Notes under the pieces: model-generated
Seen by the model: the letters and a program-made list of their open reading frames with translations, nothing else
Database searches by the model: none
Told to the model about the DNA's origin: nothing
Source: Terriglobales bacterium
GTDB taxonomy: Bacteria; Acidobacteriota; Terriglobia; Terriglobales; Acidobacteriaceae
Direction: 5' to 3'
NCBI GenBank assembly: GCA_015655195.1
Contig: JAATFM010000268.1
Span: forward strand, 1 to 60,181
DNA length: 60,181 bases
Part shown: positions 1 to 38,205 of the stretch, piece by piece
Position numbering within the stretch: position 1 is the stretch's first letter
Layout: the number at the start of each line of letters is the position of its first letter
Program-made: the position numbers and the translations under genes

Positions 1-284
1 AGCCTGCGGGGCACGATCTTGCCGCGCTCGGCAACAAAGCCCTGCAGCAGGCGCACGTCGCGGTAAGGAATCGCATCGATCTTCTCGGTGCAGAACTTGC
101 AGACCTTCTTGCGGCGGAAGAACTTGCCGCGTCCGCCGGGACCGCCGCCGGGACGTCCGCCGGGGCGAGGGCCGCCAGGGCCGGAGCTGTGACCGGAGCC
201 GGAACTTGGACCGGACCCTGAGGCCGGGCCGCTTTGTGCTGGTGCGCTCGTCTCGGGCGCCTTGACTTGTGTTTCCTCTGCCAT
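1..284 (-). CDS. rpsR: 30S ribosomal protein S18 (3' end outside window)
   Basis: Small-subunit ribosomal protein that pairs with S6 on the 30S platform. The 94 residues present contain the S18 core from about residue 57 ([10 protein letters not shown], then [11 protein letters not shown] and [16 protein letters not shown]). The CxxC pair VCKFC fits the zinc-binding form. The first 53 residues are a Gly/Pro/Ser-rich low-complexity extension not typical of S18. The ATG at 284 is preceded by AGAGGA about 6 nt upstream. It lies upstream of nothing visible here and downstream of rpsF, the usual rpsF-rpsR order. The C-terminus runs off the left edge. Confidence 0.93.
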
Positions 285-27875: not shown

Positions 27876-29126
27876 TTAGTTGGTTACCGTCACGCTAAAG
27901 ATGGCGGTCTGTGTGATTGATCCAGAGGTCGCTGTGGCGATGGCCGGATAGGTTCCTGCCGGCGTTCCGCTGGTCTGATGATTCCCTCCTCCATTGCTCC
28001 CGCCACATCCGCTTATGCCAAGAGCAGCAAAAACCAGAAACAAGCCAAGACCTGCTGCGAGCATATAGCGACGGCGCACACCAAACAGGAGCGCGCCAAG
28101 CGCGATACAGCCAAGCCAGCCGAAGCCGGCACGGTAGATTCGTGATGTTGTACTGATTGCCGCCTGAGTTCCCGCAGTTTGTACTGTGAGTGTCGCAGTT
28201 GCAGAGGATGAGCCGGGCATCGTCGAGGATGAAACGGAGCACGAACCACTCGGGATTGTCGCGGAGCAGGAGAAGCTGACCGTCCCAGCGAAACCTCCGG
28301 ATGGGGTGACCGTAATCGTAGAATTCGCCGAGGAGCCCGCGCCGATGCTCTGCGCCGTCGAATTCAAACTGATGGTGAAGGAAGGGACAGGTGCGGTAAT
28401 GGTAAGCGGTACCGTATTCGAAGTGGATGCGCTATAGGTCGCATCCCCCCTATAGGCGGCTGTAAGACTGGTAGAACCAGTGGAGCTAAACGAAGTAGTA
28501 AGGGTGGCTGTTGCGGCTCCAGTGCTCGATAAGGGAGAAGTGCCGATCGTGGCACCGTTGCTATAGAAGGTCACATTGCCGGTAGGTAATCCAGAGCCGC
28601 TCGTGGAAGCAACATTGGCCGTCAGAGTGACGTTTGTGCCTGTCGTAATGGAATTGGCAGAGGCGGCGAGGGTAATCGTCGTTGAAAGCGGATTGGATGC
28701 TGTCACGCTGGCCGAAGCCTCTGAGCCTGTGTAGGCATCGGTATTCCCCTCGTAGGTAGCCGTAACTGTATTGGCTCCTGCTACGAAAAAGCTGCCCGGA
28801 AGAACTGCCGTGCACGACCCGGCGGATAGTTGGCAGGTACGCACACTCAATGGGCCCACCGTGAAAAGCACTGTGCCGGTGGGTAGAAATTGAGGAGATA
28901 TTGTGTCCGTTACGGTCGCAGTAACCATTGTGGACCCGGAAGTCAAAATGCTGGTTGGATCCGCCGAGATCGCCGTTGCGGTGCTGTCCACTATAGTGAC
29001 CGCCTGAAGGCTCGATTCGGAGGAGGGGTAAACATTATCACCGTTGTAAGTTGCCGAGATAGGTGGGGCTTCCGGTCCACCTATAGTCACGCCACTGACT
29101 GTCGCTGAACAGCTCGGTGGCTTCTT
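27876..29126 (-). pseudogene. Ig-like repeat surface protein, 5' end truncated
   Basis: The C-terminal 400 or so residues of a larger exported protein. At least two bacterial Ig-like (Big_3-type) repeats are visible (SLTAAYRGDATYSASTSN and TVTATYEGNTDAYTG), then a third beta-sandwich with VTPSGGFAGTVSFSCSAT. It ends in the tail shared with the next three genes: hydrophobic WLGCIALGALLFG, RRR, hydrophobic LGLFLVFAALGISG, Cys-Gly-Gly, and a Thr/Ala-rich end. There is no signal peptide and no good start: the frame simply begins at a stop inside the IS5-like remnant (29106 onward). Confidence 0.75.
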
Positions 29127-29715
29127 TCAAGGTTCGATTCATGCGCTGGGCGCGGCCCGGGGTGTGGGAGCGCATCTTTTCCGATCTGGTGGCGGACAAG
29201 AAAAATCAGTATCTGATGATCGACTTCGACTCCACCATCGTACGAGCCCATCAGCAGGCGGCCACGGACTACAAAAAGGGGGCTCCGAAGACAAGGCGCT
29301 GGGGCGTTCCCGAGATAGACTGAGTACCAAGATTCACCTGCTGGCCGACGAAGCCGGGCTGCCCATAGCCTTCCGCATCACGGCGGGACAGGGCTGCTGA
29401 ATACGCCCAGGTAGTTAGCTTGCTGCAGAACCAATAGGCCGAAGCTGTCATCGCCTACAAGGGCTACGACTCAACTGAAATCGTAGCCACTATCCAAGTC
29501 CTGGGTGCGACCGCGGTTATCCCACCACGACGACACTGGAAGCAGCCGCGCAGCTACGACCGTACCTTGTACAAACAGCGAAACCTCATCGAACGCTGTT
29601 TCAACCGGCTTAAGCAGTTCCGCCGATTCGGCACACGCTACTGCCGAACCATCGAAGCCTTTCGATCCTGCACCGCTCTCGCTTGCGCTTGGATCAGACT
29701 AGCTATATATGGATA
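29106..29715 (+). mobile_element. IS5-family (IS427-like) transposase remnant
   Basis: Broken DDE transposase readable in pieces across all three frames: GVWERIFSDLVADKK and YLMIDFDSTIVRAHQQAA (29150-29270), KTRRWGVPEID, then LSTKIHLLADEAGLP (29315-29365), AVIAYKGYDS (29445-29475), and TLYKQRNLIERCFNRLKQFR (29560-29625) with the conserved YREK-like block. Stops and frameshifts at about 29322, 29398 and 29435 inactivate it. I could not identify terminal inverted repeats. It cuts the 5' part of the neighbouring Ig-like gene. Confidence 0.82.
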
Positions 29716-29989
29716 CCGCCTAGAGCGATGCAGGGGGGATTGGAGCCCCACTGCGGCCGTATTTCGCAAGCTGCTCGACAGCTTCCTTGCAGGGCTTTGA
29801 TTGCAAAACAGGATAGAGACCGCCGAGATCGAAATCGGACAGAACCAAGCGGTTGTTCAAGAGGTCTAGCATGATGGACGCAATATGTGGTGCACTGCGA
29901 GAGCCTTCCAACTCACAGAAAGTCAGGCCATGGGAGCAGGAGAATCGCATCCTGCCTCCACAGCCCGTTACAACGCCGCACTCGCAAAC
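29716..29989. other. Residual DNA between the IS remnant and the S53 gene
   Basis: The stretch holds a minus-strand open frame (29720-29950) whose middle, IMLDLLNNRLVLSDFDLGG, looks protein-like but matches nothing I recognise. Near 29965 a VVTGCGGR-like reading resembles the CGG tail motif of the neighbouring genes, so this may be debris of the disrupted paralogue. Confidence 0.3.
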
Positions 29990-32900
29990 TTACTGGATAT
30001 TCAGCGCGAATGTAGTCGAAGCTGTATTCCCTGCATCTGTACTGTCGGCTCCGACCACCGTGATGGTATAAGTCCCCTTTGCGGTGGAAGGCGAGCTTCC
30101 GCCTCCGCAACCCGTTACCGCTCCGGCTGTTGCCAATAAGAACAGCACCATCATCAACCAGAGTTTTTTACGCCTGCGCACTCCCAGCAGCAGAATGCCC
30201 GCCATCCCTGCAAATGCAAACGATATGGACCTCATCCTGTTTGCAGCAGATGCAACCGTCACTCCCGATGAAGCAATCCTTTTGTAATTCGAGGAGGCCG
30301 TGCACGCTGTTCCTATGGCAATACGAATGGTTGCGGTTGCCGTAGATTTCAACGCCACCACTGGGTTTGTGCTTACCGAATAACACGCCCCACTTATGCC
30401 CTGACTCGACAAGGAGAGATTGACCGTTCCAGCATAGGTGCTGGTTGAAGTAATAGTTACCGTTGACGATCCGCTCTGCCCCTGCGTCAACGTTACATCG
30501 GTTGCGCTCAACGTAAATGCCGAAGCGGCTGAGCTGACGGTAAACGTTGCCGACCCGGAAGACGCCGCATTCCCCGCATCTCCCGAGTAGTTTGCCGTTA
30601 CCGCATGGGATCCGGCGGAAAGCGTCCCGACATTCAACATCGCGGCGCCATCCACCAGGGATACCGGCGAGCCACTGACCGCGCCATCCATGGCAAACTG
30701 CACCGTGCCTGTCGGCACACCTGCGGCAGACTGCACCGTAGCGCTCAGGCTCACCGCATCCGAGGTCGTAGGCGCTGCCGGAGAGATGTTGACCGTCGTC
30801 GTATCACTCGCAGCGGTATTCACCACAAACGAAAGCGTACCCGACGATGCAGAAAACGCGCCGCTGCCGGAGTAATTCGCGGCAATCTGATGCCTGCCCG
30901 CCGTCAGCGCCGCAACTGCGCAGTTCGCGGCTCCGTTTGTCACCGCCACACTGGCGCATGTCGCCGCGCCATCCACCGAGAACTGCACCGTGCCACTGAT
31001 GCTTCCGCTTGTGCCCGACGAAACACTCGCTGTTACTGTGATCGCACTTGCCGTCGTCGGCGCGGCAGGAGAAATAGCAAGTACCGTTGTCGTTGCCGGA
31101 AGCGGCGCCACCACAAAGGTAAGCGATCCTGCAGATGTCGCCGTGGCGCTATCCCCAGAGTAGATCGCACTCGCTATATGATTCCCGGCAGTCAGCACGG
31201 GGCTCGTATACGTCGCCACCCCTCCGGAAACCGCCACCGCGCCGCCTACGGCTACGCTATCGATAGAAAACTGCACCGTGCCCGAAGGCGCGCCACCGGC
31301 AGATGAAGCCACATTGGCAGTAAAGGTAATCTGCTGCGCCGCATTCGGAGCAGACGGCGCAATCGACACGCCCGTGCTGCTTGCCGCCAGCGATGTTCCG
31401 CTGCCATAGTCGGGAAATGCCTGCGCCAGGTGAAAGGCATCGATCGTGCCCAGCCCTGTCGTCACGTCATACCCCGGCCCGGCGCTGTAACCAATCTGCG
31501 TTGTCCCCGCAGGGCAATCCACCGAACCCGCCGTGCACGGACTATCGTTATTCCCCATCGTTACGTCATGGAAGATACCGGTGCTCGTCGACAACGGATA
31601 AAGCAGAGGATTGATGTTGCCCTGACCGCCGGACGCAACGGATTGATTAATGAGCGTAAGAATACCGGCAAAGATCGGCGCGCCAAAGGATGTGCCGCCA
31701 GCCTCTTCCACATACCCGTCGCTGCAATTGTCCCCATTGCTATTCGCAGGCCCGCAGAAAAAATATGGATCATGAATGTTCGAAGCATCGAGCGATATAT
31801 CAGGAATATCGCGCGCGCCATCGGCAGGAACGCCCGCGGCCACCTGCCATGACGGCTTGGCGAAGACCTGACTCACACCTCCACCGCCCGCCGCGAGACC
31901 GGCTCCCTGCGCCGTCGTCACAGCCGAGTCATTCCAAACCATCTCCGGAATATAGGAGATCGCCGAGCCATTGTCCGCGCCATTCGTGCTGTTCCAATAG
32001 CTGCCCGCTCCCTCGTTGAACTCGGTTCCGCCAATACCCGTGAAGTTCGGCGCATCCGCCGGAAACTGCACCAACAGGCCCTCCGTCGCGCTGTTCACTC
32101 CAAAATCGCATCCTGTTGCGCCCTCATCGCCTGCTGCCGCAATCAGCGTCTGTCCCTGCGCGTTCGCCTGGTCAAACAGCGTCGTAAAAGCACTCAGATT
32201 GGAGGTTGTCAGCGCACTTTCGCACGCGCCATAACTGCTGCTGATTACCGGCGCCACATCATTATCGATCGCATATTCAATCGCATCAAAGACGCTGTAA
32301 TTGGCATTGTTTCCCGAGTACACAAAGTTGATGACCGCATCCTGCGCAATCGCGCCCGAGTATTCAATATCCAGATCCGACTCGGATTCATCATCGGCCG
32401 TCAGCACCGCGCTGCTTCCGCTGTTGGGCACCAGAGTCAACACCAGGTTGGCATTGCCGCCAAAATAATCATGAAAGTTGGCAATATCCGCCGTGTCGAT
32501 TGCGCTCTGCCCGACGATCACGACACTCTGCCCAGCCCCTGTATAACCCGCGCTGTAGAGAGGAGCAATGTCATAAATAGTGCGCAGATCCGCCGGCACC
32601 ACAAAATGATCTCCGCTCCCATCCGTATAGTTTGGGGAATACTTCACAGACGCCTTTTCCCTGTGCATCGTATGAGGCCGTAGAGAGTTCAGATTGCCCA
32701 CGCCCGATACCACATTCACCAGCGCCGCAGGCAGAGAAAGCTCCGTAGCATTCGCAAAGAAACTGCTCTCTCCAAGCGTGTAGCGATGTATCTCCGTGTT
32801 GAAGGCGGTCTGCACCTGAGAGACCGTGCCGGAGAAACGCACATGCAGCGGCGTCGCCTCCGATACCACAAAATGCTGCCCACGCAGCCATGCAACAACG

Positions 32901-33277
32901 CGATTCACATCCCCATCCGCCAAGCCAAAACGCGCCGCATATTCCTTCGGCGTAAGCCAGTGGCGATACTGCGGGGAATTTCGATCCTGCTGGTCCTTCA
33001 GCAACTCGGCGAGGTCTGTTTTCTGCGCCTCACTCAAAGAAAAGTGAAGCGTCATATTTTCAATTGTCGTATTTGCGCTGAGCTTCCCCGCATCCTGCGC
33101 GCCACGCAACGCCTGGAGCAGGCTCCCATGCAGAACAGCCTTCGTTCCCGCATCCACGGCGGCGACTCTCTCGACCGCCTGCGATGCCTGCTGCGCCCCT
33201 GCCCGCACCGCAAAGAACGCAGCCCACATTACGGCTATCGAGACAATCGCTCTCATGCTTCTTCGCAGTGAGCGCAT
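29990..33277 (-). CDS. S53 (sedolisin/kumamolisin) peptidase with Ig-like repeats and CGG tail
   Basis: Exported acid-type serine-carboxyl peptidase. After a signal sequence (AIVSIAVMWAAFFAVRAGAQ) comes the Pro-kumamolisin activation domain (about residues 55-190: HFSLSEAQKTDLAELL, RHWLTPKEYAARFG). The S53 domain covers about 220-600 with catalytic Glu and Asp in ESESDLDIEYSGAIA and Ser in GGTSFGAPIFAGIL. Three or four Ig-like repeats follow (TVQFSIDSVAVGG, TVQFSVDGAATCA, TVQFAMDGAVSGS). The end is hydrophobic, RRR, hydrophobic, VTGCGGGSS and a beta-rich segment. I start it at ATG 33277 (GGGGGC upstream); 33256 is possible. Likely a secreted protein-degrading enzyme anchored by its tail (inference). 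Confidence 0.88.
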   Translation of the reverse strand: MRSLRRSMRAIVSIAVMWAAFFAVRAGAQQASQAVERVAAVDAGTKAVLHGSLLQALRGAQDAGKLSANTTIENMTLHFSLSEAQKTDLAELLKDQQDRNSPQYRHWLTPKEYAARFGLADGDVNRVVAWLRGQHFVVSEATPLHVRFSGTVSQVQTAFNTEIHRYTLGESSFFANATELSLPAALVNVVSGVGNLNSLRPHTMHREKASVKYSPNYTDGSGDHFVVPADLRTIYDIAPLYSAGYTGAGQSVVIVGQSAIDTADIANFHDYFGGNANLVLTLVPNSGSSAVLTADDESESDLDIEYSGAIAQDAVINFVYSGNNANYSVFDAIEYAIDNDVAPVISSSYGACESALTTSNLSAFTTLFDQANAQGQTLIAAAGDEGATGCDFGVNSATEGLLVQFPADAPNFTGIGGTEFNEGAGSYWNSTNGADNGSAISYIPEMVWNDSAVTTAQGAGLAAGGGGVSQVFAKPSWQVAAGVPADGARDIPDISLDASNIHDPYFFCGPANSNGDNCSDGYVEEAGGTSFGAPIFAGILTLINQSVASGGQGNINPLLYPLSTSTGIFHDVTMGNNDSPCTAGSVDCPAGTTQIGYSAGPGYDVTTGLGTIDAFHLAQAFPDYGSGTSLAASSTGVSIAPSAPNAAQQITFTANVASSAGGAPSGTVQFSIDSVAVGGAVAVSGGVATYTSPVLTAGNHIASAIYSGDSATATSAGSLTFVVAPLPATTTVLAISPAAPTTASAITVTASVSSGTSGSISGTVQFSVDGAATCASVAVTNGAANCAVAALTAGRHQIAANYSGSGAFSASSGTLSFVVNTAASDTTTVNISPAAPTTSDAVSLSATVQSAAGVPTGTVQFAMDGAVSGSPVSLVDGAAMLNVGTLSAGSHAVTANYSGDAGNAASSGSATFTVSSAASAFTLSATDVTLTQGQSGSSTVTITSTSTYAGTVNLSLSSQGISGACYSVSTNPVVALKSTATATIRIAIGTACTASSNYKRIASSGVTVASAANRMRSISFAFAGMAGILLLGVRRRKKLWLMMVLFLLATAGAVTGCGGGSSPSTAKGTYTITVVGADSTDAGNTASTTFALNIQ

Positions 33278-33398
33278 GTGCCCCCGCTCACAAACCGGCC
33301 ATGCAGACGCTTCAACTCCCCCAACAATCAGCATTGCTATCCTTCCTGATTTCATCCGGTCCTTTTGCTCTCGCATCCGTTTCTGCATATGCCCGCTC

Positions 33399-35654
33399 CT
33401 ACTGCACATTGAGAGACAGCGTTGTCGTTGCGGACTGGCTTCCTGTTGTCGCGGTTACGGTCACGGTGCTCGTACCCACGGGCGTGCCTGTAACCACAGG
33501 CGCTTTGCTGCCACCGCCGCACGCGCTCAACCCTGCGCTCATTCCCAGCAGCGCAAACAATGCAACCACGGCAAACCACCGCGCGCATCTGCGCCGTCCA
33601 CGGAAGATCCCCGCAAGCGCCAGCAATCCCGGCAGGGCAAAGGCATACATCGCGCCTGGCCCAGCCTGCCTGCGCGCGGCGGATGCACTCTGAAAAACAC
33701 CGGTTGTCGTAATCTGCAAAGCAACCGTGCCATAGGAAGGCGAACCGGAGAACGTTCCAAAGCTACAGGCCGCTCCAGCAGGCAATCCGGAACACGCAAA
33801 GGAGATGGCAGTGCCGGAGAAACCAGAGACGGCAAGCGACGCGCTTCCCGGAGCGCCCGGAGCCGCGATATTCATCGTGGACGGTGTCGCCGTCACTGTC
33901 GGCGTTGCCGAGTTCACCAGCAGGGATAGGCTTATCGTGGCCGTTGCCGGCACACTTTCGGCATCGGCCACCTGCACGGTAAAGCTGTAACTGCCCGCCG
34001 CTGTCGGCGTGCCGGAGATCGTCCCGCTTCCCGCATCGAGCGTCAATCCCGCCGGCAGATTCCCGGAGGCGACACTCCACACATACGGTCCCAGTCCGTT
34101 CTGCGCGGAAACCACAGCCGAATACGCCGCGCCAACAGTAGCATCCGGCAGACTGGCCGTCGCAATCGACAACGGCGGCACTGTCAGCGTGGCGAAGCCC
34201 GACTCAAACCCTCCGCAGGTCAGGCCGTAGGTAAAGCTGCCCGATGCCGTCGGCGTAATCGTCGCGCTGCCCGCATACACGCCATCGCTCAGCGTCCCCG
34301 CCTGCAATCCGCTCCACGCACCCGCGCCAATCGCGCCATTCTGCACTGAGGCATAGCACTGCTGCAGCGTCGTCGAGCTCGCATTCAGCACCTTCCACGA
34401 GAGCGTTACCGGAACGCCCGGCGCAACCGAGTCCTCGCTCAGCGCAAGCTGCACCGGAGCCGCCAGCGCAGGGGAAAGCGCCAGCTTGAAAATCGCGCCC
34501 TTGCGATTCTCGCCGCCCGCCTCCGTCGTGCCATACAGATTCCCATCCGTTCCCTGCACGAGTCCATCCAGCGGCTGGCTTCCCGTCGCGCCCTGCCTGA
34601 AGGTATAGAGCGTCGTCAGCTTGCCCGCGAGCGTAATCTGATAGACCGTTCCGTTACCGTTGAAGGTCGTCGTACCATACAGATTTCCGTCCGAGCCAAG
34701 CGCCAGGGTTCCTTCGGGATTGCCGCCATCCGCTCCACCGGTAAAGTCATAGAGAGGCGTCAACGCGCCATCCGGCGTAATCTTGAAGATCGCTCCGTAG
34801 CCGGCGTTGTCGTCGGCATCGTATCCGGAGGCGAAGTTGCGCGTTGTGCCATAGAAGTTTCCGTCCGGCCCCTCGACCAGCCCGCCATCGGGATTGCCGC
34901 CATCCATGCCGCCCTTAAACAGATACAGATTGGCAAACTCACCCGAGGGCGAAATCTTGAAGACCGTTCCATCGCCATAGAACGTGTTTCCATCCGTATT
35001 GTTGGTCGTTCCATAGAAGCTTCCATCGCTGCCCTGCACCATCCCGGCATACGGACTTCCACCATCGTCGCCGCCGGTAAAGGTATAGAGCGTCGTCAAC
35101 TCCCCGGCGGGCGTCACCTTGAAAATCGTGCCGTAGCCCTGGCCTCCGCCTGCCGTCGTCCCATAGAAATTTCCATCGCTGCCCTGCACCAGACCGCCGT
35201 CAGGACTTCCGCCATCGCTGCCATTGGTAAAGCTGTACAGCGTGGTGAAGGTTCCCGTCGTCGTGACCTTGTAGATCATGCCGTAGTTGTTCGCGCCGCC
35301 GCCGGCAACGCCGTAAAATGCGCCGTCGCTGCCCTGTACCAAGCCTGTGATCGCACCTTGCCCGCCGGCTCCGCCCGTAAAGCTGTACACCATGGAGAAG
35401 GTGCCATCCGGCGCAATCCTGTAAACGGAGCCGAAGCCATTCGTGCCTCCGCTCGGCGCCGTTCCATAAAAGTTTCCATCGCTGCCCAGCGCCAGCGGGC
35501 TATAAGGATCGGCCCCATCGCCGGTCCCGCTGAAGCTGTAAAGAAGCGAATACGTCGCACTCTGCGCGAGAAGCGGGGAGGCGCAAAGACTCAGGCACAC
35601 AAGCAGAAGAAACAAAGAAAAGTATCGGCGCACGAGAGAGTCCTGAAGAGACAT
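33399..35654 (-). CDS. GloVer-repeat surface protein 1 with CGG tail
   Basis: A 751-residue exported protein. A signal peptide (YFSLFLLLVCLSLCASPLLA) precedes seven tandem Gloeo/Verruco (GloVer) repeats over about residues 35-395, each with a version of LVQGSDGNFYGTT and IFKVTPxGxLTTLYSF; seven copies suggest a seven-bladed propeller (inference). An Ig-like region, a putative-Ig (He_PIG) domain (LPAGLTLDAGSGTISGTPT) and a beta-rich segment follow. The C-terminus is FALPGLLALAGIFRGRRR, a second hydrophobic stretch, GLSACGGGS, then VTVTATTGSQSATTTL. The function is unknown. It shares overall design with the next gene. Confidence 0.82.
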   Translation of the reverse strand: MSLQDSLVRRYFSLFLLLVCLSLCASPLLAQSATYSLLYSFSGTGDGADPYSPLALGSDGNFYGTAPSGGTNGFGSVYRIAPDGTFSMVYSFTGGAGGQGAITGLVQGSDGAFYGVAGGGANNYGMIYKVTTTGTFTTLYSFTNGSDGGSPDGGLVQGSDGNFYGTTAGGGQGYGTIFKVTPAGELTTLYTFTGGDDGGSPYAGMVQGSDGSFYGTTNNTDGNTFYGDGTVFKISPSGEFANLYLFKGGMDGGNPDGGLVEGPDGNFYGTTRNFASGYDADDNAGYGAIFKITPDGALTPLYDFTGGADGGNPEGTLALGSDGNLYGTTTFNGNGTVYQITLAGKLTTLYTFRQGATGSQPLDGLVQGTDGNLYGTTEAGGENRKGAIFKLALSPALAAPVQLALSEDSVAPGVPVTLSWKVLNASSTTLQQCYASVQNGAIGAGAWSGLQAGTLSDGVYAGSATITPTASGSFTYGLTCGGFESGFATLTVPPLSIATASLPDATVGAAYSAVVSAQNGLGPYVWSVASGNLPAGLTLDAGSGTISGTPTAAGSYSFTVQVADAESVPATATISLSLLVNSATPTVTATPSTMNIAAPGAPGSASLAVSGFSGTAISFACSGLPAGAACSFGTFSGSPSYGTVALQITTTGVFQSASAARRQAGPGAMYAFALPGLLALAGIFRGRRRCARWFAVVALFALLGMSAGLSACGGGSKAPVVTGTPVGTSTVTVTATTGSQSATTTLSLNVQ

Positions 35655-35673
35655 AAGCTGGAGATAAGGTTTC

Positions 35674-35708
35674 GCGGCACGGCCCCCAATTGGCAGGGGC
35701 CGCGCCGC
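35674..35708 (-). terminator. Hairpin between the two GloVer genes
   Basis: GCGGCACGGCCCC (35674-35686) pairs with GGGGCCGCGCCGC (35696-35708), one mismatch. There is no strong U-run, so it may be a terminator or an mRNA-stabilising hairpin. Confidence 0.5.
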
Positions 35709-35722
35709 ACAACAGGCTGCGA

Positions 35723-37924
35723 TTACTGCACCGTCAGCGTTACCGTGCCAGTCGCCGACTGCGTGCCAGCCGTCGCCGTCACCGTCACCGTGCTGGTGCC
35801 TGCGGGAGTTCCCTCATTGCCCGCAGGCGTGCTGCTGCCGCCACACGCACTCAGCGTCAGCCCAACAAAGAACAGCATGGCCAGCATCAGCGCATTGCCC
35901 CACAGGCCATTCTTGCGACGACGAGCCCGGAACAGCGCGCCAAGCGCAAGCAGTCCCGGCATGGCCAACGCATAAGTTATCGGAAGCCCGCCTTTGGTAC
36001 GTGCGGCGCTGGCCGTCGCGGGAGCGGTTGTTGTAACCTGCATCGTGGCCGTTCCCACGCTGCCCGTTCCAGAAAGAGCGCCAAAGGTGCAGGCCGCGCC
36101 ACTCGGCAACCCGGAGCAACTGAAGCTGATCGTGTTGCTGGAGAAGCCGCTCACGCTCAGCGTTGCGCTGCCGCTTCCGCCCGGAGATGCAATCGAAACC
36201 GCGGTCGGATTCACCGAGATCGTCGGTGTCGCCGTCGTAACGGTCAGATTCAGATCGGCGGTAGCCTCCACCGGAGTCGCCTGCGAATCAATCACCTGGA
36301 TCGTCAGGTCAGTTACACCCACCTCTGTCGGAGTACCCGAAATCACGCCCGTACTCGCGGCCAGCGTCAACCCGTCCGGCAGATTACCTGCGGCCACGCT
36401 CCAGGTATATGGAGGCACACCGCCCGTTGCCGCAAGCGTCGTCGAATAGGCTGTTCCCGTCACACCGCCCGGCAGGCTGCTGGTCGTAATCGCCACTGGA
36501 GCCGGCGCGCCAACCACCAGGCTTACCGAGCCGGTCTCCTGCCCGCCGCAGGTCAGCACATAGGTAAAGGTTCCCTCCGCCGTCGGAGTAATCGTCGCCG
36601 AGCCAGCATACGCGCCGCCGCTCAGCGTTCCAGTCTGCGCGCCTGTCCAGATGCTGGCCCCCGGCGTGGTTCCCGGCACAAATGCCGCGCACTGCTGCAT
36701 CGAGGCTGAGAAGGCATTCAGCACTTTCCAGCTCAGCGTCGTCGAAGAGCCAAGCGCAATCGACGAATTCGTCAGCGAGAGCTGCACCGGGGCGGCCAGC
36801 GCAGGCGAAACAGCCGCCGCAAAGACCGCGCCATCCGTATGCGCTCCCCCAAAGGCCAGCACGCCATACAGATTTCCGTCACTGCCCTGGATCAGGGTTG
36901 CACGCGGATCCTTGCCAGCCGTGCCACCCGCAAAGGTCGTCAGCGTCGTCAGCACACCTGCCGGGGTTACCTCGAACAAGGTGCCATTTCCGCTCGTCGT
37001 GCCACCGTAGAAGTTACCGTCGCTGCCCAGCAGCAGCGTATTTACCGGCCCGCTGCCGTCATCGTTTCCGGTAAAGCTGTAGATCGTCGTAAAAGCGCCG
37101 CCCGGCGTCACCTTAAAGATGGAGCCAAGCGCGTTAGCTCCGCCATTCTCCGTGGTGCCATAAAAATTGCCGTCGCTCCCGGCCACCAAACCGGCCTGAC
37201 TGCTGCTGCCATCTGTCGTGCCGTTCAGGCTGTAAATCGCGTTAAAGGTTCCCGTCGGCGTAATCTGGAAGATCGTTCCCGCCTCATTCTGGCCGCCATA
37301 CGGCGTCACACCATAAAAATTGCCATCGGTCCCCTGCACCAGACCGGCATAGGGATTCGCGCCATCATTGATTCCCGTAAAGCCATAGAGCAGCGTAAAC
37401 GTTCCATCCGGCGTCAGCTTGAAGACCGTTCCCGCGCTGCTTGCCCCGCCGTTGGTCGCAATGCCATAAAAATTGCCGTCCGAGCCCAGCGTAAGGCCAG
37501 CATAGGGATTTGCGCCATCGTTGTTCCCCGTGAAGGCGTACAGCGTTGTCAGCACACCCGCCGGCGTAATCTTAAAGACGGTCCCGGACTGATTCGCACC
37601 GCCCGCCCCTGTCGTGCCATAAAAGTTTCCGTCATTGCCCTCTACCAGAGGAGCCTGCGGCAGCCCGCCATCATCCCCCAAGGTAAAGTTGTAGAGCGTC
37701 GTCATCGTGCCCGACGGGGTAATTTTGTAGACCGTTCCCACGCCATTGGCACCGCTCGCCGGGGCTGTGCCGTAGAAGTTGCCGTCACTTCCCTGAATCA
37801 ATCCCGTATAAGGATCGTCCCCATCCTGATCGGTGTAGCTGTAGAGCACGGTCGTCGTGGCCGTTTGAGCAAAGGAAACGACCGACACAAAAAACATGGC
37901 AAGAAAGAGTAGCGCACGTCGCAT
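35723..37924 (-). CDS. GloVer-repeat surface protein 2 with CGG tail
   Basis: A 733-residue paralogue of the preceding protein. Signal peptide MRRALLFLAMFFVSVVSFAQ; seven GloVer repeats (LIQGSDGNFYGTA, LVEGNDGNFYGTT, LTLGSDGNFYGIA and so on) over about 20-380; Ig-like region with ALTNSS-type strands; He_PIG domain with LPDGLTLAASTGVISGTPT; then the tail LAMPGLLALGALFRARRR, hydrophobic stretch, TLSACGGSS and VTVTATAGTQSATGTVTL. The ATG at 37924 has GGAG 8 nt upstream; the open frame to 37957 adds a non-signal segment. It is the promoter-proximal gene of the array and diverges from the 38206 regulator. Confidence 0.83.
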   Translation of the reverse strand: MRRALLFLAMFFVSVVSFAQTATTTVLYSYTDQDGDDPYTGLIQGSDGNFYGTAPASGANGVGTVYKITPSGTMTTLYNFTLGDDGGLPQAPLVEGNDGNFYGTTGAGGANQSGTVFKITPAGVLTTLYAFTGNNDGANPYAGLTLGSDGNFYGIATNGGASSAGTVFKLTPDGTFTLLYGFTGINDGANPYAGLVQGTDGNFYGVTPYGGQNEAGTIFQITPTGTFNAIYSLNGTTDGSSSQAGLVAGSDGNFYGTTENGGANALGSIFKVTPGGAFTTIYSFTGNDDGSGPVNTLLLGSDGNFYGGTTSGNGTLFEVTPAGVLTTLTTFAGGTAGKDPRATLIQGSDGNLYGVLAFGGAHTDGAVFAAAVSPALAAPVQLSLTNSSIALGSSTTLSWKVLNAFSASMQQCAAFVPGTTPGASIWTGAQTGTLSGGAYAGSATITPTAEGTFTYVLTCGGQETGSVSLVVGAPAPVAITTSSLPGGVTGTAYSTTLAATGGVPPYTWSVAAGNLPDGLTLAASTGVISGTPTEVGVTDLTIQVIDSQATPVEATADLNLTVTTATPTISVNPTAVSIASPGGSGSATLSVSGFSSNTISFSCSGLPSGAACTFGALSGTGSVGTATMQVTTTAPATASAARTKGGLPITYALAMPGLLALGALFRARRRKNGLWGNALMLAMLFFVGLTLSACGGSSTPAGNEGTPAGTSTVTVTATAGTQSATGTVTLTVQ

Positions 37925-38205
37925 AGTCACTCCAGGGCAGGTATTATTTGCGTCCAATGGACTGGGAGGAGCCCGATTGGGGCAGGATCGCCGCCGATCG
38001 GCAAATTCATTTCTTAATCAAACTTGTGATCTAGGTTGTACTTCTGCAAGCCTGAAATGAGCAATATCTTTGCCTGAAAAAGGCATCAGGATATACGCTT
38101 TAATTTCAATCACATATACATTGACAGCGAGCCGGCCATCCCCGGAAATTCTGGACATTTTTCCTCCCGTCGGCTATCAGGGAGCGAATTTGTACAATAA
38201 ATTGA

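Follow-up and report, generated by a model that had tools for sequence, protein, structure and literature searches.

To our knowledge, each of the Gram-negative systems known to anchor proteins by their C-terminal end—PEP-CTERM, GlyGly-CTERM and MYXO-CTERM—needs a dedicated protease. In PEP-CTERM/exosortase and GlyGly-CTERM/rhombosortase, a helix and a basic cluster stand on varied exported proteins, and the chain ends soon after the cluster, with no second helix and no cysteine. GAIN and SEA domains are self-cutting; their parts stay together non-covalently, one of them carrying a membrane anchor. The MYXO-CTERM/myxosortase signal runs in the order Cys-helix-Arg, with one C-terminal helix and no defined lipobox, is found on dozens of carriers per genome, and has an invariant cysteine that its authors predict to be lipidated (PMC11980579). 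Here we analyze a C-terminal tail shared by four neighboring minus-strand open reading frames (ORFs) in a 60,181-nucleotide stretch of DNA from a Terriglobales bacterium of the family Acidobacteriaceae (contig JAATFM010000268.1 of assembly GCA_015655195.1; hereafter ‘the window’). The tail resembles MYXO-CTERM in being a C-terminal device with an invariant cysteine and many carriers per genome. However, its order is helix-Arg-helix-Cys, followed by the last strands of an Ig-like domain, and the added helix would restore the topology used by LspA. An earlier sequence-only reading of the window had likened the first half of the tail to the MYXO-CTERM kind, whose order is in fact the reverse.

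The four ORFs encode an Ig-like (Big_3_5) protein of 404 aa with a GTG start (27876-29090), an S53 (pro-kumamolisin) peptidase with three Big_3_5 repeats (29990-33409 as listed) and two GloVer repeat proteins (TIGR03803, He_PIG), GloVer1 (33399-35654) and GloVer2 (35723-37957). These assignments derive from profile matches, complemented for the first ORF by reading of its sequence. Each ORF closes with a hydrophobic segment, an arginine cluster, a second such segment, a lipobox-like cysteine and a beta-rich end. The cysteine lies 38-42 residues from the C-terminus, i.e. not at the position expected of an N-terminal lipoprotein. As the sequence-only reading had it, the residues before this cysteine are ISG, VTG, LSA and LSA, respectively, and each is reached through an arginine cluster and 18-22 mostly hydrophobic residues. 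The shared layout that it pointed out was likewise borne out: all four tails exceed the curated cut-off of 37 bits of the family NF058595 (Ig-like ORF 60.9, S53 38.6, GloVer1 71.8, GloVer2 80.4 bits), and none of 14 control genomes contained a match over that cut-off, with 11 of them showing some match at E 0.01. The tail is not undescribed, as had been claimed: NF058595.1 (invert_tail, “lipo-invert putative C-terminal anchoring domain”; 113 positions) in NCBIfam release 20 (June 2026) already covers it, and the window tails are this catalogued module. Its model seems to begin close to strand E of the domain described below, which spans ~170 residues and reaches beyond it. Searching the genome that contains the window (4.76 Mb, 96% complete; ‘own genome’) returned 75 NF058595 matches at E 0.01, 48 of them over the cut-off. 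Reading each ORF identified 69 as tails or tail pieces; dropped were five ordinary N-terminal lipoproteins (L091, L095, L100, L101, L104) and one protein with no tail (L103). A count of 66 used below also omits the partial or near-duplicate pieces L070, L098 and L102.

Profile comparisons and structure models indicate that the tail consists of a single Ig-like domain into which a membrane hairpin is inserted ahead of the final two strands. The piece after the cysteine, which the sequence-only reading took for an independent C-terminal fragment, corresponds on this evidence to the F-G strand pair of the interrupted domain, and its last ~30 residues resemble GTPAGTYTVTVTATSG...TLTVQ, as found at the C-terminus of a common Ig-like domain. 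The earlier claim that the domains upstream of the tail are unrelated stands for the functional domains, yet all four proteins have the same Ig-like domain in the ~75 residues that lead up to the first hydrophobic segment. An S53 protein of the own genome (L058) carries two Ig-like domains in tandem, the first uninterrupted and the second split by the hairpin at the same place. Profiles built from the own genome alone had yielded no pair when we attempted to pair internal domains; reading of the matches then exposed this copy.

Relatives were fetched from genome contigs by two peptide patterns that do not include the lipobox cysteine and were confirmed by tblastn with the whole tail, giving 80 named loci. 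A tail was defined by two hydrophobic segments, a basic cluster (two K/R within the rule) and a cysteine. This rule was failed by L148, L195 and L210; by eye, L148 was restored as a tail with a cysteine and L182, which had passed, was removed. The result was 77 hairpin tails, with L182, L195 and L210 containing uninterrupted domains only. Of the 77 named tails, 70 entered alignment A3 together with two window tails, 44 entered A4 (plus two) and 67 entered A5 (plus four).

From 72 tails, two separate profiles were made, one of 75 positions for the sequence ahead of the hairpin and one of 33 positions for the sequence that follows the cysteine. The former matched GloVer2 (E 1e-16) and GloVer1 (6e-16), both contained in the profile, as well as the Ig-like ORF (8e-15) and S53 (3e-6), neither of which is (Z=100). 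At E 0.01, shuffled controls matched the pre-hairpin profile in 3 and the end-piece profile in 4 of 1460 cases. The first-part profile found 170 matches in 155 proteins. The second part followed within -1 to 10 residues in 19 of these, i.e. in uninterrupted domains, and after 51-175 residues in 113; among the remaining 38 are more uninterrupted domains, whose ends have diverged, and tails that contain an additional domain. An uninterrupted copy also occurs in 11 of the 77 named tail proteins (8 with an end piece scoring at least 9 bits; 4.6-5.3 bits, a weak score, in L153, L159 and L165), L058 being the twelfth such protein. When the two profiles were compared with one of 29 uninterrupted domains (19 picked by rule with the same two profiles and 10 by eye), the first part covered columns 1-74 (E 6e-25) and the second aligned to columns 75-108 (E 3.4e-9), adjacent and non-overlapping; because the domains were mostly picked with those very profiles, the E-values are inflated and the comparison is partly circular, and it is the adjacency of the columns that constitutes the evidence. 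Within the own genome, the first part was found at E 0.01 (Z=100) in 63 of 64 testable tails, and the second in 47 of 63 at E 0.01 and 52 of 63 at E 1. Of the 16 tails in which the second part was missed at E 0.01, 11 contain an extra Ig domain. These belong to a second class of tail, represented by 13 own-genome ORFs, in which a whole Ig-like domain lies between the cysteine and the final strand pair; their first part matches at E 4.9e-15. The tail-less L103 (contig C121), an S53-type protein with two uninterrupted Ig-like copies, is a natural control.

Predicted structures are consistent with a split domain. For the last 175 residues of GloVer2, left unaltered, AlphaFold2 produced a model with a mean pLDDT of 84 and a pTM of 0.65 from the 72 sequences of alignment A3; strands at residues 10-74 and 151-174 reached a pLDDT of about 90-98, and the helices at 92-111 and 116-133 were lower. 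VIA-align superposed residues 8..175 of the model on a sialidase Ig domain that occupies a single stretch of chain (2ber 405-502; Z 11.5, rmsd 2.3, 94 aligned). Both sides of the insert must contribute to this match, because residues 8-76 amount to 69, yet 94 are aligned. This Ig-like domain of the Micromonospora viridifaciens sialidase (2ber, 1wcq) is the best structural match to strands A-E plus F-G; its chain runs from 405 to 502 without an insert, whereas the tail domain is split by the hairpin. A named relative with an extra Big_2-like domain after the cysteine (L214; alignment of 46) was modeled with a pLDDT of 83 and a pTM of 0.58. The extra domain forms a separate unit (140..233; best match 7r3t_B, Z 12.6), and residues 1..263 still match 2ber 407-502 (Z 11.2, rmsd 2.2, 95 aligned), whereas residues 139..234, taken by themselves, match other domains.

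Within the window, the parts of the split domain can be placed as follows, all on the minus strand. For the Ig-like ORF, the stretch with the first strands (A-E) lies at 28158-28427 (by reading and profile), the predicted hairpin of segment 1, RRR (28068-28076) and segment 2 at 28008-28148 (by reading), and the lipobox cysteine (28005-28007) with linker and strands F-G at 27879-28007 (by NF058595 and profile). On the same grounds, strands A-E of the S53 protein were assigned to 30260-30529, its hairpin, with RRRKK (30164-30178) between the segments, to 30110-30250, and the cysteine (30107-30109), linker and F-G pair to 29993-30109. The corresponding positions in GloVer1 are 33672-33941, 33522-33668 (RRR at 33588-33596) and 33402-33521 (cysteine at 33519-33521). 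In GloVer2, where the AlphaFold2 model complements profile, reading and NF058595, respectively, they are 35996-36265, 35846-36001 (RARRRK at 35912-35929) and 35726-35845 (cysteine at 35843-35845). The Ig-like ORF, already called a fragment in the sequence-only reading, begins with GTG, lacks a clear signal peptide and is probably an N-terminally truncated gene remnant. Upstream of it, ~900 bases up to 29990 hold no intact continuation in the three frames, and the tail itself is still in frame. In its listed form, the S53 ORF shares 11 bases with the end of GloVer1 (33399-33409), and its signal peptide suggests a later start codon; the true start is probably internal, before MRSLRRSMRAIVSIAV.

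The cysteine at the end of the hairpin is strictly conserved. Although the retrieval patterns lack it, it is present in 77 of 77 tails, preceded in every one by G, A or S. It was placed by hand in L097, L148 and L156 (in L156 between two candidates); hand-written entries for L144, L159 and L202 agree with the rule. Position -3 is L, I, V, M or F in 65 of the 77, and Asp occupies +2 in 3. Counted back from the cysteine, the nearest K/R is 15-26 residues away. At least three K/R within six residues between -40 and -14 were found in 72 of 77 tails, so that both the cysteine and the basic cluster are conserved across homologues, as the sequence-only reading had anticipated. Own-genome tails, found with a model that includes the cysteine, have it together with G/A/S at -1 in 66 of 66. 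A reference set of 30 ORFs from the fetched loci with a cysteine after an N-terminal hydrophobic stretch had G/A/S at -1 in 17, a set too loose to serve as a positive control. Across columns 77-138 of the 72-tail alignment, with a mean column identity of 25%, the cysteine is the sole invariant column, and two arginine columns reach 63/72 and 61/72. Out of 72 tails, the most frequent residue of a column was shared by a median of 21 for the hairpin, 32 for strands A-E and 42.5 for strands F-G. Judged by these column counts, the hairpin changes fast apart from its conserved cysteine, and the end piece, 33-57 residues long in most named tails, is the best-conserved part. Six tails (L061, L140, L141, L142, L151, L204) have a Y-x-Y-x-x-H-x-P-x-x-N linker after the cysteine instead of the usual Gly/Ser stretch. 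A Pro or LPG opening segment 1 was rejected as a protease motif: PG is part of one retrieval pattern, and own-genome tails often lack it.

The tail is not tied to one kind of protein. Thirteen carrier ORFs, the four of the window included, were examined with Pfam or NCBIfam and include S53, FG-GAP, NHL, BNR, GloVer, NosD-like beta-helix, lamin-tail, ASH and choice-of-anchor proteins. The expectation that unrelated exported domains (S53, propeller, GloVer, beta-helix, lamin-tail and others) rather than a single family would carry the tail thus held. Clustering of the N-terminal parts of own-genome tail proteins gave groups of 21, 14, 7 and 4 plus 19 singletons. On seven contigs (C138, C98, C30, C120, C106, C124, C152), a gene of the FG-GAP group with a short tail lies a few kb from a gene with an extra-Ig tail, the latter being S53-group genes in six cases and L086 in the seventh. 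Chance was rejected as the source of the shared tail, given four of four window tails and none of 14 control genomes over the cut-off and 3 of 1460 shuffles matching.

Beyond the own genome, a phylum sample of 297 genomes was searched, with per-genome tail counts as lower bounds (best 14 or 16 candidates per genome). NF058595 matches at E 1e-5 occurred in 53 genomes, in 36 of them over the cut-off. A profile from A5 at E 1e-6 matched 39 of the 297, namely all 31 listed genomes of the window’s family and eight others with one match each. Named tails come from Granulicella, Edaphobacter, Terracidiphilus and Acidicapsa, among others. Of nine records titled Proteobacteria, Nitrospira or Myxococcales and searched whole, seven had one tail match and one had two. 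The ninth, titled Rhodanobacteraceae (G324, containing L152), has 17, far above the other non-acidobacterial records, and its label may be wrong. Among the best 48 candidates per genome from 100 genomes of the family of an Ideonella record, that record alone matched at E 1e-8.

With respect to function, we lean towards a reading, somewhat probable on the sequence and model evidence, in which the split-Ig tail anchors its protein via an internal type II signal, the lipidated F-G pair being held non-covalently in the Ig domain. Features of a type II (Lgt/LspA) signal—a basic region, a hydrophobic stretch, a cysteine in a lipobox-like context with G/A/S at -1, and a Gly/Ser-rich tether—are shared by the tail, but its copy is internal, near the C-terminus, behind a stop-transfer segment and mostly on proteins with a separate N-terminal signal. 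An N-terminal hydrophobic segment is present in 45 of the 51 complete own-genome tail proteins, in many followed by A-x-A before Q. This signal peptide would bring the protein into the Sec pathway and strands A-E would emerge; segment 1 would then stop transfer and place the arginine cluster in the cytoplasm. Cluster and segment 2 would act as an internal type II lipoprotein signal, presenting the lipobox cysteine at the outer face in an orientation that Lgt and LspA can use. The hairpin is thus predicted to cross the membrane twice with its arginines inside, because strands A-E and F-G must share the outer side, and segment 1 would be needed because an exported chain must be turned round before it can present a lipobox to LspA. 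By analogy with the established lipoprotein pathway, Lgt would lipidate the cysteine and LspA would cut before it. The new lipidated N-terminus would belong to the F-G pair that completes the Ig domain, leaving a non-covalent membrane tether after the cut; we infer lipidation, cutting, re-association of the end piece and the final membrane alike. The hairpin stub on the upstream chain would be a second anchor or be removed by another protease, and the outer membrane or cell surface is a possible destination after such a further cut. The own genome has one LspA match, a partial Lgt at a contig end, LolA and two secretins. GAIN and SEA domains come closest to such a cut-and-held domain; in the tail, the proposed cutter would be LspA and the anchor a lipid on the end piece.

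Several observations weigh against this reading, in addition to the circularity of the profile-profile comparison. As to the split domain, memory of known folds can lead AlphaFold2 to an Ig fold, and a Foldseek search with the GloVer2 tail model returned no PDB match at E 0.001. One of the 77 tails (L156) ends without strands F-G. In the own-genome extra-Ig tails the final strand pair is matched weakly, at E 5.9e-5 and a probability of 65% by the tail F-G profile and at E 0.0055 and 6.6% by the uninterrupted profile. As to the signal, Q stands at -3 in 5 of the 77 tails, and 18 of the 77 fail the last five positions of a PROSITE-like lipobox pattern (59 fit; 58 of 66 in the own genome). A lipobox-like motif also occurs in the N-terminal segment of 4 of the 51 complete own-genome tail proteins (L038, L054, L059, L069). 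Finally, after an LspA cut the stub of segment 1, RRR and segment 2 would stay in the inner membrane, making lipidation redundant unless a second cut followed. No supported protease candidate for that cut was found; a weak rhombosortase match in the own genome (C150:16880-17047; 21.7 bits against a cut-off of 84) is an unsupported candidate.

One alternative is a plain two-helix anchor, with the hairpin embedded in the inner membrane beneath a closed Ig domain and the cysteine, neither lipidated nor cut, serving in a disulfide, as a thiol or in packing. A hairpin alone would be enough to hold the protein, and the 18 tails that deviate from the lipobox pattern fit such a view. It leaves unexplained why the cysteine is the one invariant column among columns 77-138 of tails with a mean column identity of 25%, and why G, A or S precedes it in all 77 tails, which a plain helix does not account for and which the loose N-terminal set shows in 17 of 30; we regard the plain anchor as unlikely, if worth keeping in mind. 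Should the cut occur without re-association, the tail would instead be a release device, the second option of the sequence-only reading, LspA cutting at the cysteine, the end piece being lost as a lipopeptide or degraded and the upstream part staying on the stub. The proposed cut site does lie between the two parts and the end pieces are short, but they are more conserved than the hairpin (42.5 against 21 of 72) and retain the F-G sequence of uninterrupted domains, as expected if they still complete the fold, which makes release distinctly improbable.

Likened by the sequence-only reading to a PEP-CTERM or MYXO-CTERM sorting signal, the first half might be processed accordingly, an exosortase or a CPBP protease cutting segment 1 plus RRR and the rest being discarded. 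Segment 1 and RRR do look like the final two elements of such a signal, LPG opens it in some tails, and exosortase is present in 17 of 32 sampled genomes of the window’s family. That distribution is patchy, whereas tails occur in all 31 listed family genomes (the samples partly overlap). A search of the own genome for exosortase (PF09721) came back empty at E 0.001, and four of the six tail-bearing genomes in the exosortase sample (G000, G007, G023, G179) lack it, with two (G084, G210) having it. No rhombosortase was found over the cut-off in the own genome, and CPBP proteases were not searched for. Unlike a PEP-CTERM protein, moreover, the chain continues with a second helix, the invariant cysteine and a conserved strand pair, and we give the sorting explanation very little credence. 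The stretch from RRR onward, taken alone, looks like a small lipoprotein, and exported proteins might have been joined to a downstream small lipoprotein gene by a fusion artefact. Yet the end piece shows homology to the F-G strands of the same domain that stands before the hairpin, and the arrangement is seen at 69 places in one genome and at 77 of 80 loci elsewhere, so that this origin is barely credible.

Literature searches, with most subscription papers and preprints outside their reach, returned no paper on the lipo-invert/NF058595 tail, none on an Ig domain interrupted by a membrane hairpin and, judged by titles and the starts of abstracts, none on C-terminal or internal lipoboxes of this kind; as far as these searches reach, the split-Ig anatomy is unpublished. 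It turns an odd tail into a specific, proposed anchoring mechanism: if correct, it would explain the first helix as the element that turns the lipobox the right way round, and it predicts a non-covalent, self-complementing tether. We put forward more tentatively, as something a little short of probable, the wider idea that the general lipoprotein pathway rather than a dedicated sortase splits the Ig domain, with dozens of carriers each held by their own lipidated F-G hairpin through strand complementation, a bond that could be mechanically releasable or allow hairpins to be exchanged between carriers. Were the mechanism true, Lgt and LspA would suffice for a bacterium to anchor a protein by its C-terminal end, and, with 69 places in the own genome and tails in all 31 listed genomes of the family, many exported proteins of these soil bacteria would be concerned.

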